64,000 bases of DNA from Geothrix fuzhouensis (GTDB lineage: Bacteria > Acidobacteriota > Holophagae > Holophagales > Holophagaceae): NCBI RefSeq assembly GCF_024609325.1, contig NZ_JANHMQ010000002.1, positions 808,310 to 872,309 of the forward strand, in the 5' to 3' direction. This document shows, piece by piece, positions 31,193 through 33,408 of this stretch. Below the pieces are notes generated by a model, which saw only the letters and a list, made by a program, of their open reading frames with translations, did no database searches and was not told the origin of the DNA. The position numbers and the translations under genes were made by a program. Numbering within the stretch: the first letter of the stretch is position 1; every line of letters starts with the position of its first letter.

Positions 31193-31241
31193 TTGACAAG
31201 GGGATGGAACTACACAAAATAGTCTACACAATCTTGTGTAG
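31193..31241 (+). promoter_or_regulatory. blaI promoter with BlaI/MecI-type operator
   Basis: A consensus -35 TTGACA (31193-31198) is followed by an AT-rich -10 area (31216-31222). Overlapping and just after it is a perfect palindrome CTACACAA-TC-TTGTGTAG (31224-31241), preceded by a second CTACACAA half at 31210-31217. TACA/TGTA palindromes are the known recognition pattern of BlaI/MecI repressors, so this is very likely the repressor's own operator. Confidence 0.8.
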
Positions 31242-31248
31242 GATTCTC

Positions 31249-31620
31249 GTGACACGCCCCCTCAAGCCAACTGACGTGGAGCTCAAGTTCCTGCGCATTT
31301 TGTGGGATTTGGGCCCCTCCACCGTGAAGGAAGTCCATGCCTGCCTGAACCGCAGGGAGGCCTACGCCTATACCGGCGTGTTGCGGATGCTGCAGGTGAT
31401 GCTGGACAAGGGGCTGGTGACTCGCGACGAACGGCAGCGCAGCCATGTCTATGCCCCGGCCCACAGCCGCGCGGCCATGGAAGGTGGCCTGGTGGCGGAC
31501 CTGACCGAGCGCCTCTTCGGAGGCTCCGCCGCGACGCTCGTGCTTGCGGCCCTCCAGTCCGGACCGGTCAGCCCCGAGGAGAAGGCCCGCATCCGCGACC
31601 TGCTGGGCAGGGAGGAGTGA
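31249..31620 (+). CDS. BlaI/MecI family transcriptional repressor
   Basis: A 123-residue winged-helix repressor. MTRPLKPTDVELKFLRILWD, the VKEVHACLNRR recognition region and VLRMLQVMLDKGLVTRDE wing match BlaI/MecI; the C-terminal helices form the dimer domain, ending at GREE. In the classical system the repressor is cleaved by, or through, the membrane protease BlaR1. The GTG at 31249 was chosen because AGGA lies six nt upstream and the protein then starts at the family's usual N-terminus; the upstream ATG at 31204 would put the operator palindrome inside the coding region. It shares one nt with the next gene (TGATG). Confidence 0.93.
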   Translation: MTRPLKPTDVELKFLRILWDLGPSTVKEVHACLNRREAYAYTGVLRMLQVMLDKGLVTRDERQRSHVYAPAHSRAAMEGGLVADLTERLFGGSAATLVLAALQSGPVSPEEKARIRDLLGREE

Positions 31621-33362
31621 TGGATTCCTTCATCCAGATGCTTGGGTGGGCCCTCATCCACGCGCTCTGGCAGGGCTGCCTGCTCGTGCTGGTGGCGGCC
31701 TGGGGTGGGCGTTCCCTACCTGGAAGGGCGCGTCACCGGTTGAACGGTCTGATCCTGCTTTTGTGCCTCGTGCTACCGGTCGCCACCGCCTGGAACGTCC
31801 ACGGGCCTGGGGGGGGACCCGGGATGGCCGACCGGACCCTGCCGGTTCAGGAAGTGTCCTCAACCCTCCGGCACCCAGCTCGGCCGGTTGCTGAACCTTG
31901 GCTCGAACGCCTGGAGGCATCGCTCCAGCCCAAGTTGCCAGGGCTGGTGCTTCTGTGGGCCGTGGGCGCCGGCCTCATGGCCCTGCGCCTGGTGGGCGGG
32001 TTCGCCCTCAACCTTCGCCGGCAGCGCCAGGGGCTTCCGGCGCCCGAGGAATGGCAGACCAGGCTGGGCACCCTGGCCCGGCGCCTGGGCATCCTGCGGC
32101 CCGTTCGTCTGCTGCTGGCAGCGCGGGGGCATACCCCCATGACCATGGGCCTGTGGAAACCCGTGATCCTCCTTCCAGCGGCTTTTCTCACCAGCCTCCC
32201 GCCGGCCTACCTGGAGGCGCTGCTGGCCCATGAACTGGCGCACGTGCATCGGCTGGACTACCTCAGCAACCTGCTCCAGGGCCTCGCCGAAACCCTGCTC
32301 TTCTTCCACCCGGCCATCTGGTGGCTCTCGGCCCGCATCCGGGCCGAACGGGAGGAACACTCCGACGACCTTGCAGCCCAGTGCCTGGGCGACCCGCGAC
32401 AGCTGGCCCTGGCCCTCAATGCGCTGGATGACCTCCAGCCTGCCAACCACCCCGTGTTCCCGGCCCTTGCGGCCCGTGGAGGAACCTTGCTCACGCGCAT
32501 CGAACATCTGCTCTCGCCTCGCCCCCGGGCGGGCTCCCCCTGGGGGCTACTCACCCTGCTGCTGATTCCCTGCGCCGCGCTGGCCTTGCGGGCGGCCCTG
32601 CCGGGCCAGCCCCCCATCGGCGCCCCTCCAGACGTGATCGCCAAGCTTGATGCCCTGGCGGCCAAAGAAGGCCTGGATCCCCAGCTGCTCCGCAGCATGG
32701 CCTGGGTGGAGAGTGGCTTCAACACCGCGGCCAGGAGCCCCAGAGGCGCCACAGGCCTGCTCCAGGTCATGCCCGAGACGGCCCGGAAATACGGGGCGGT
32801 GGATCCGGGCGATCCCGCCCAGGTGATGGCGGCGGGCGCGAAATACCTGCGGGTGCTCCTGGACCGTTATCAGGGAGATGTGCCGAAGGCCGTGGCGGCC
32901 TACAACTGCGGCGAGAAGGCCCTGGAGGAAGGGCGCATCACTGAGGAAGCCACCCGCTACCGGGCCCTGGTGTTGGATGTGCTGGCCGCGAAAGCCGTGC
33001 AGCCCGAGATCCCGTTGGCGGAAGGAGAAGTCCAGGGGGTCATCCGGCGCACGAGAGGCGACGAACTGATGATCCACCTGCGCGCCAACGGACGCGGGAA
33101 CCTGAAGGTGGACCTTCTGCCCGCAGATGGCTCCAAGGCCATCGGGACGGTCCGCATCGGGGGGAAGGAACCTGGTGGGACCTTCAACGTGGGTCCGTGG
33201 ATGGAATTCCGACCGAAGGTCGTGGTCAAGGCTCCCAAGGCCGGAGTGGCCCTGCTGATCCATTGCGAGGATCCCGGCACCGGCTGGAAGGGCGAAATCC
33301 TTGCGCCGCTGGATGGCCCCTGGAAGACGTTCACCTTCCGGATGCAGCCTTCCAAACCCTGA
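31620..33362 (+). CDS. BlaR1-like M56 protease fused to lytic transglycosylase domain
   Basis: A 580-residue protein. The N-terminal M56 membrane-protease part has hydrophobic segments at about 10-28, 42-58, 108-128 and 309-326, with the zinc site HELAH at 204-208 and a downstream EREEHSDD supplying the third ligand. After the fourth helix, where BlaR1 carries its extracellular penicillin-binding sensor, this protein has an SLT lytic-transglycosylase domain (about 337-455): LLRSMAWVESGFN with catalytic E364, GATGLLQVMPETARKYG and AAYNCGEKAL. A beta-rich tail of about 110 residues follows. SLT domains bind and cleave peptidoglycan glycan strands. With blaI directly upstream, the pair looks like a cell-wall-sensing anti-repressor circuit; sensing is inferred. 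No beta-lactamase gene is nearby. Confidence 0.92.
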   Translation: MDSFIQMLGWALIHALWQGCLLVLVAAWGGRSLPGRARHRLNGLILLLCLVLPVATAWNVHGPGGGPGMADRTLPVQEVSSTLRHPARPVAEPWLERLEASLQPKLPGLVLLWAVGAGLMALRLVGGFALNLRRQRQGLPAPEEWQTRLGTLARRLGILRPVRLLLAARGHTPMTMGLWKPVILLPAAFLTSLPPAYLEALLAHELAHVHRLDYLSNLLQGLAETLLFFHPAIWWLSARIRAEREEHSDDLAAQCLGDPRQLALALNALDDLQPANHPVFPALAARGGTLLTRIEHLLSPRPRAGSPWGLLTLLLIPCAALALRAALPGQPPIGAPPDVIAKLDALAAKEGLDPQLLRSMAWVESGFNTAARSPRGATGLLQVMPETARKYGAVDPGDPAQVMAAGAKYLRVLLDRYQGDVPKAVAAYNCGEKALEEGRITEEATRYRALVLDVLAAKAVQPEIPLAEGEVQGVIRRTRGDELMIHLRANGRGNLKVDLLPADGSKAIGTVRIGGKEPGGTFNVGPWMEFRPKVVVKAPKAGVALLIHCEDPGTGWKGEILAPLDGPWKTFTFRMQPSKP

Positions 33363-33373
33363 GCTTCCCCGTA

Positions 33374-33408
33374 CGCAGAACGGCCCGGCATCGCCGGGCC
33401 GTTCTGCG
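33374..33408. terminator. Bidirectional 16-bp hairpin between convergent genes
   Basis: A perfect 16-bp stem starting CGCAGAACGGCCCGGC with an ATC loop, placed 11 nt after the M56-SLT stop and 12 nt before the end of the convergent small gene. It has no T-run but is very stable. Confidence 0.65.

Follow-up and report, generated by a model that had tools for sequence, protein, structure and literature searches.

A BlaI-M56 operon of Geothrix fuzhouensis with a lytic-transglycosylase domain at the sensor position of BlaR1

The staphylococcal bla and mec systems combine a BlaI/MecI repressor, operators placed over the promoter and BlaR1, an M56 membrane protease with four helices and a penicillin-binding sensor domain after helix 4 (PMC9834060). 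The EL1 loop of BlaR1 is reported there as occupying the sensor site, and BlaI is cleaved at Asn-Phe, the Phe at P1' being almost invariant. The present analysis concerns a stretch of 64,000 nucleotides (nt) from Geothrix fuzhouensis (Acidobacteriota, Holophagaceae; GCF_024609325.1, contig NZ_JANHMQ010000002.1, positions 808,310 to 872,309), referred to as the window and belonging to a genome of 3.3 Mb that is 97% complete. It contains an operon in which a gene of the BlaI/MecI family is followed by a gene for an M56 protease fused to a lytic-transglycosylase (SLT) domain. Because of the BlaR1-like anatomy and a linked deacetylase target in relatives, we lean towards a bla-type proteolytic switch whose sensor would be the lytic-transglycosylase domain, reading peptidoglycan.

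The likeness to the staphylococcal system (PMC9834060) extends from the BlaI/MecI repressor, the four-helix M56 protease and the operators over the promoter to the enzyme-type extracytoplasmic domain after helix 4, the EL1-like loop and, in the related genus g6, a divergent gene for a candidate effector. The systems differ in that the sensor place is held here by SLT and there by the penicillin-binding domain. Compared with the bla/mec divergon, the candidate effector here is a polysaccharide deacetylase, the operator is another one and the Phe of the BlaI cut site is not conserved; within the genus of the window the deacetylase is either absent or not linked to the operon. Nearest in logic is the Sigma-V/RsiV lysozyme response, a proteolysis-controlled pathway which, in C. 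difficile and E. faecalis, switches on a peptidoglycan deacetylase (PMC9044953, PMC4183432). The resemblance is in the working principle, proteolysis leading to a deacetylase, with no shared family; lysozyme itself is bound by RsiV, with release of a sigma factor, whereas here the lysozyme-fold domain belongs to the receptor and the presumed substrate is a repressor. M23 joined to M56 is mentioned as an architecture in the available text of PMC9662197, with neither regulator nor target, and the combination of M56 with a peptidoglycan hydrolase domain is therefore not unheard of, although the hydrolase is an M23 endopeptidase there and SLT here. No description of an M56-SLT receptor was found in the open-access literature searched, as far as its text was accessible, and PMC7928374, considered as a report on M56, transglycosylase and BlaI, was rejected since its available part treats unrelated genes. 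The SLT part has the lysozyme-like fold (Z 16-17) and the catalytic-Glu motif of Slt, MltF and MltC. Those enzymes are free or lipid-anchored, whereas the SLT domain here is built into a signalling protease. NCBI presumably uses an architecture name of the form 'M56 and MltD domain-containing protein'.

Pfam analysis of the fusion protein, 580 amino acids (aa) in one frame, gave matches to Peptidase_M56 (PF05569, 86.4 bits, cut-off 31) and to SLT (77.2 bits, cut-off 21.3), and the 123-aa product of the upstream gene matched Penicillinase_R (PF03965, 85.4 bits, cut-off 22.6), which assigns it to the BlaI/MecI family. The PF05569 match, the HExxH...E zinc site and the BlaR1 fold place the protease in peptidase family M56, and the fold together with the catalytic Glu-Ser and AYNxG motifs places the SLT part in family 1, whose reaction, the release of 1,6-anhydro muropeptides, it may carry out. 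Residues H204, E205, H208 and E245 of the protease and E364 and S365 of the SLT part were invariant in an alignment of 11 rows (A1). No penicillin-binding, transpeptidase or beta-lactamase domain was found by the Pfam scan of the protein, and the NCBIfam model blaR1_generic scored 48 bits against a cut-off of 400. The protein does not belong to the BlaR1/MecR1 receptors, having SLT in place of their C-terminal penicillin-binding sensor domain. What the initial annotation had described at the level of motifs was found in place: a BlaI/MecI gene with an exact palindrome at its promoter, a one-nt overlap of the two genes (TGATG, 31618-31622), the HELAH core of M56 at residues 204-208, and Glu364, GATGLLQVMPETA and AAYNCG in the SLT part.

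A model of the fusion protein was built with AlphaFold2 on a 37-row alignment. The mean predicted local distance difference test (pLDDT) value was 88 and the predicted template modelling (pTM) score 0.67, which makes the placement of the domains relative to each other less sure. Residues 8-288 matched S. aureus BlaR1 with Z 18.8 (8exs, 4.9 Å, 247 residues), and the corresponding values for the second BlaR1 structure were Z 18.6 and 2.8 Å (8ext, 235 residues). Residues ~329-463 matched Slt and MltF with Z 16-17 at about 2-3 Å, the identity in the structure alignments being 26-28% with Slt and 21-24% with MltF; Pseudomonas Slt (5ohu) gave Z 17.0, 2.1 Å over 129 residues and 28% identity. The initial annotation had proposed this comparison with BlaR1 and Slt and had placed an SLT domain after helix 4, at the position of the BlaR1 sensor, followed by a beta-rich tail; both placements are borne out, the former by Pfam and the predicted structure. 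A spurious SLT match without the lysozyme fold was ruled out by the 5ohu match together with the Pfam score. Between helices 2 and 3 there is a loop of 32 residues, mostly of low confidence (pLDDT under 50 at residues 66-89), which in the model sits at the same place as EL1 of BlaR1. By analogy with BlaR1, the M56 gluzincin domain would lie in the cytoplasm. The tail was modelled as a confident, separate beta-sandwich domain. It had no Foldseek match below 0.001, and its structure rows (VIA) at Z 8-9 were a mixture of C2, Sec63-type and GH2 sandwiches; no family is therefore named for it.

The distribution of the fusion was surveyed in 77 genomes of the Geothrix family, some of them fragmentary, so that counts of the fusion are lower bounds. 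It was present in one frame at 30 loci (L081-L110) in 30 genomes, with HExxH and AYNxG in that frame at every locus (L101 is a contig fragment with N), and a sequencing error joining separate M56 and SLT genes was thereby rejected. Two further copies, one without the beta tail (G051) and one ended by the contig end inside SLT (G058), bring the total to at least 32 of the 77 genomes. A BlaI gene lay upstream at all 29 loci that hold upstream DNA, the thirtieth contig (L086) starting 6 nt before the M56-SLT gene. The distance to the M56 start was within 39 nt at 27 of the 29; the exceptions were L101, where the distance is unreliable because the M56 start is misplaced in a fragment with N, and L082, where a gap of 831 nt contains an extra small open reading frame (ORF; seen in L013, same contig). 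This ORF (L013:3288-3932, 214 aa, cysteine-rich C-terminus) occurs at one of the 29 loci and had no Pfam match. Roughly 80-100 extra residues were seen between the SLT domain and the beta tail in L105, L106 and L107, and in G070 a second BlaI-M56 pair with a TACGAA/TTCGTA-containing promoter directly follows the M56-SLT gene in tandem (L150:3382-7268).

Outside the family, another type of M56-SLT protein was found in three of 396 Acidobacteriota genomes (G132, G288 and G366, E 1e-90 or better) and in a metagenome-assembled genome of Myxococcota (L057), that is, in two further Acidobacteriota families and Myxococcota. BlaI adjoins it at L057, L146 and L149, and a TACGAA-type promoter lies upstream at L145. 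Neighbourhood with blaI, which the initial annotation had wished to see checked across genomes, thus holds for all 29 family loci and for these three. The beta tail is absent from this other set, as from the G051 copy. In a first tree of M56 domains (53 rows) the family fusions fell into one group of 33 rows with support 97/86; the contig-cut L185 and L191 are in this group, L145 and L149 were left out and one gene is present twice (L102, L150). In a second tree (43 rows), from which five near-copies or fragments were left out and a motif filter had dropped some rows without SLT, the 28 fusion rows of the family grouped at 92/90 and the four other M56-SLT rows stood outside on long branches. 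A single origin of all 32 M56-SLT rows was not rejected on the latter tree by the approximately unbiased test (p-AU 0.29), and two separate fusion events are therefore not claimed. Spread on plasmids was rejected: among 72,556 plasmid records searched with the fusion by tblastn, 904 had a match, and coverage reached 80% at no place.

Two operators lie at the promoter of the operon, and the perfect palindrome and the second, upstream site are retained at this promoter across the genus. Comparison of the relatives gave the same tandem arrangement of CTACACAA-type sites, two per promoter with a 14-nt step. Copies of the fusion in g7, g8 and g9 have the operator variants CTACACCA / TTGAGTAG and TAGACAA, and those in g6 have TACAYCTTGCAATGTA with GTACA repeats at the same step. 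The palindrome has a single exact place in the window's genome at up to 2 mismatches, and a backward control pattern gave 2 places; because of the latter it is the exactness, not the count, that argues against a chance palindrome. The window's genome has two further BlaI-M56 pairs, one with a tail lacking a Pfam domain and one with TonB_C. TACGAA/TTCGTA sites stand at these and at most of the other pairs read, with L140 and L138 departing from this type. As read from the promoters, TACACAA-N2-TTGTGTA is an operator class new here, unlike the TACGAA type that prevails among the other BlaI-M56 pairs read. TACGAA/TTCGTA-like sites precede BlaI at L111, L112, L132-L137, L139, L146, L148 and L149; they were seen in this family and in one or more other families of Acidobacteriota, TTCGTTGA often linking the operator to the -35 element, and to judge by these promoters they are a broad operator class.

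A candidate target of the new operator was found in the genus. Outside the fusion operons, TACACMATCTTGTGTA (1 mismatch) matched only in G010, G020 and G033, in each case in front of the same gene. Its product is a PF01522 deacetylase (53.4 bits) that looks secreted and has the motifs TFDDGP and HTVTH; the nearest solved chain is 5o6y (E 1.3e-9). When 47 genomes of the genus were scanned with TAYACAANNTTGTRTA, 1 mismatch being allowed, 31 places matched, of which 23 are at fusion operons, 6 at the deacetylase and 2 at other sites. The backward control matched at 14 places, spread over 13 genomes. The two stray places (G006:C3:161480, L182; G040:C63:1318, L183) were rejected as targets since the regions, when read, showed no repeated target and G040 has no detected fusion. 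Close orthologs of the deacetylase (72% identity or more) were found in 6 of the 21 genus genomes with the fusion and in none of the 26 without a detected one, and the operator is in the promoter of all six (G008, G010, G012, G020, G033 and G049). The gene lies away from the fusion operon in the window's genus. The M56 trees divide the six genomes among about four lineages, so that they count as fewer than six independent cases. Flanks around the operator are only ~45% identical among the orthologs; the 85% identity of the 16-nt core was not used as evidence because the core was located by the pattern itself. In several promoters the right half-site touches a -10-like TATACT, which could be another reason for its conservation; the left half-site and the fully symmetric site of G010 and G020 are independent of it.

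Paralogs of the deacetylase (~44% identity) had no operator that the pattern detected, and most lack the literal TFDDGP string. One of them (L180:4530-5654, within G000:C1:592000-600000; PF01522 49.5 bits, 44% identity to the target) lies on the same strand as a BlaI-M56-TonB_C pair and upstream of it, the two being separated by a further ORF. BlaI of this type is near 7 of 23 paralog loci by row order, and BlaI-M56 pairs and deacetylases may be linked more widely.

A closer association was seen in genus g6, where a family-wide search found deacetylase copies of 75-76% identity on the fusion contigs. At all four loci, L108 (G057), L110 (G059), L185 (G058) and L191 (second copy in G059), the deacetylase is divergent from BlaI-M56, and the shared intergenic region of about 120-155 nt contains the palindrome TACAYCTTGCAATGTA. 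Two of the four show the fusion in full; in L185 and L191 the contig ends inside the SLT part. At up to 3 mismatches in five genomes, the palindrome was found only at those loci, at the operon of G056 itself and at one place with 3 mismatches in G059. The layout of a divergon, with the candidate effector divergent from repressor and receptor and with shared operators, is present at the four g6 loci, two of them contig-cut, and absent from the window; in g6 it corresponds to the bla divergon with other enzymes in both enzyme positions.

In the proposed mechanism, the SLT domain would bind, and perhaps cleave, peptidoglycan glycan in the periplasm, and its occupancy would be passed through the EL1-like loop and helices 3 and 4 to the M56 domain, as in BlaR1. 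The M56 domain would then cut BlaI, inducing the operon and, where present, the deacetylase, which would alter the sugars of the wall and so make it a poorer substrate for muramidases or transglycosylases. The initial annotation had inferred a sensor of peptidoglycan state with a repressor controlling cell-wall genes. Its BlaR1-like architecture, the SLT domain at the sensor position and the conserved BlaI partner stood; a target of the wall-sugar kind was supported in relatives, by the six deacetylase operators and the g6 divergence. In the window's own genome a regulon of cell-wall genes was not supported, since the search at up to 2 mismatches of the 18-mer or 1 mismatch of TAYACAANNTTGTRTA returned only the operon's own promoter, and the close deacetylase was not found.

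Several observations weigh against a peptidoglycan-sensing switch. No second operator was found in the window's genome, either with the 18-mer at up to 2 mismatches or with TAYACAANNTTGTRTA at up to 1, and 15 of the 21 fusion-bearing genus genomes, the window's included, have no close deacetylase. The three exact places of the operator variant in seven g7/g9 genomes are all at BlaI genes of this type (G066, G070 and G067), no other target being found there. G056 has the fusion without a divergent deacetylase, and G055 has a deacetylase ortholog (76%) with no operator seen and no detected fusion. The best NCBIfam equivalog match of the deacetylase was 45 bits against a cut-off of 400, and its substrate is therefore not assigned. 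At the other M56-SLT proteins (G366, G132 and G288) the sites are of TACGAA type, so the operator class does not follow the SLT domain. The TAYACAANNTTGTRTA scan missed the operons' own diverged sites in G011, G012 and G023; it is therefore not exhaustive, and diverged target sites would escape it as well. Finally, the Asn101-Phe102 cut site of S. aureus BlaI aligns with Ala-Ala, in a weak pairwise match (E 0.81). Another cut site in BlaI is possible; Ala-Ala makes cleavage in the manner of BlaI less probable and leaves the domain-based family membership as it is.

These observations bear most on a rival explanation, in which SLT is the output: a membrane-anchored lytic transglycosylase would be under its own repressor, and M56, responding to another cue, would cut BlaI when more wall cleavage is wanted. 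The finding of no operator but the operon's own in the window's genome and in most fusion-bearing genomes of the genus fits it, as do the lytic-transglycosylase motifs and Glu364, retained beyond what binding alone needs, and the SLT half's relatives (~47% identical) that the family has in proteins without M56. A sensor with a separate effector is suggested instead by the g6 divergence and by the six genomes with deacetylase sites, and the SLT domain occupies the BlaR1 sensor position together with an EL1-like loop. We regard this rival as the less probable account but a serious one because of the 15 genomes without a close deacetylase, the single operator found in the window's genome, the unconserved cut-site Phe and the unassigned deacetylase substrate.

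SLT domains bind glycan strands, and SLT might merely tether or localise the M56 receptor to the wall, with sensing by the loop or by the beta-sandwich tail, a confident separate domain in the model. This is improbable in view of the retained catalytic Glu and of the G051 copy and the other M56-SLT set, which have no tail, so that the tail is not essential there. A beta-lactam switch, in which SLT would respond to murein turnover caused by beta-lactams, draws on the family membership of BlaI and of the M56 part, both shared with the beta-lactam system; it is very unlikely given a protein in which Pfam finds no penicillin-binding or beta-lactamase domain, and targets that consist of the deacetylase and the operon itself.

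The peptidoglycan-sensing switch can be taken one step further, with considerably more doubt, to a 'murein divergon', a feedback loop reading N-acetylation or integrity of the wall, in which the receptor has its own lysozyme-fold wall-cutting domain as sentinel. Wall glycan that is digestible or being digested would engage the SLT domain, the protease would inactivate BlaI, and the deacetylase would then make the glycan indigestible and so turn the signal off.

The features of the locus are collected in the table below. An automatic ORF start at 31204 would place the palindrome inside the BlaI coding region; comparison with relatives puts the start at the GTG just 3' of it. The inverted repeat after the operon is a possible terminator.

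Features of the BlaI/M56-SLT locus (positions in the window)
Feature	Position	Strand	Basis and remarks
-35 hexamer TTGACA, operon promoter	31193..31198	+	direct reading; TTGACA/TTGACG at same place in genus relatives
Imperfect upstream operator CTACACAA-N2-TAGTCTAC	31210..31227	+	overlaps next operator by 4 nt, 14-nt step
Perfect palindromic operator CTACACAA-TC-TTGTGTAG	31224..31241	+	direct reading, genome scan, related sites
BlaI/MecI-family repressor, 123 aa, GTG start	31249..31620	+	PF03965, 85.4 bits; start by relatives
M56-SLT fusion protein, 580 aa	31620..33362	+	Pfam, family comparison, predicted structure
Four-helix membrane part with M56 gluzincin domain, residues 3-326	31626..32597	+	Pfam, model
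EL1-like loop, helices 2-3, residues 62-93	31803..31898	+	model; place compared with BlaR1 EL1
HELAH zinc motif, residues 204-208	32229..32243	+	alignment
Fourth transmembrane helix, residues 308-326	32541..32597	+	predicted model
SLT lytic-transglycosylase domain, residues 337-457	32628..32990	+	Pfam, predicted model, structure match
Glu364 codon, family-1 transglycosylase catalytic Glu by motif	32709..32711	+	reading, 11-row alignment A1
C-terminal beta-sandwich, residues 468-576	33021..33347	+	predicted model, structure searches
Inverted repeat, 16-nt perfect arms, 3' of stop codon, no T run	33374..33408	.	direct reading

Among receptors whose repressor-cutting protease is driven by an enzyme-like domain, BlaR1 has been studied best. 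Here the same chassis of protease and repressor carries another wall-enzyme domain, its operator can be defined and it has a candidate effector, and it offers a testable system for how Gram-negative bacteria might sense periplasmic peptidoglycan by regulated proteolysis. The comparison suggests a wider set of envelope sensors built on M56 and BlaI, in which the beta-lactam systems form one branch. If the doubtful feedback loop were true, the M56-SLT proteins of two further Acidobacteriota families and Myxococcota would be its wider kin, from one old fusion or several. If the sensor reading is true, the cell may read the state of its own wall through a switch known for the detection of penicillin.

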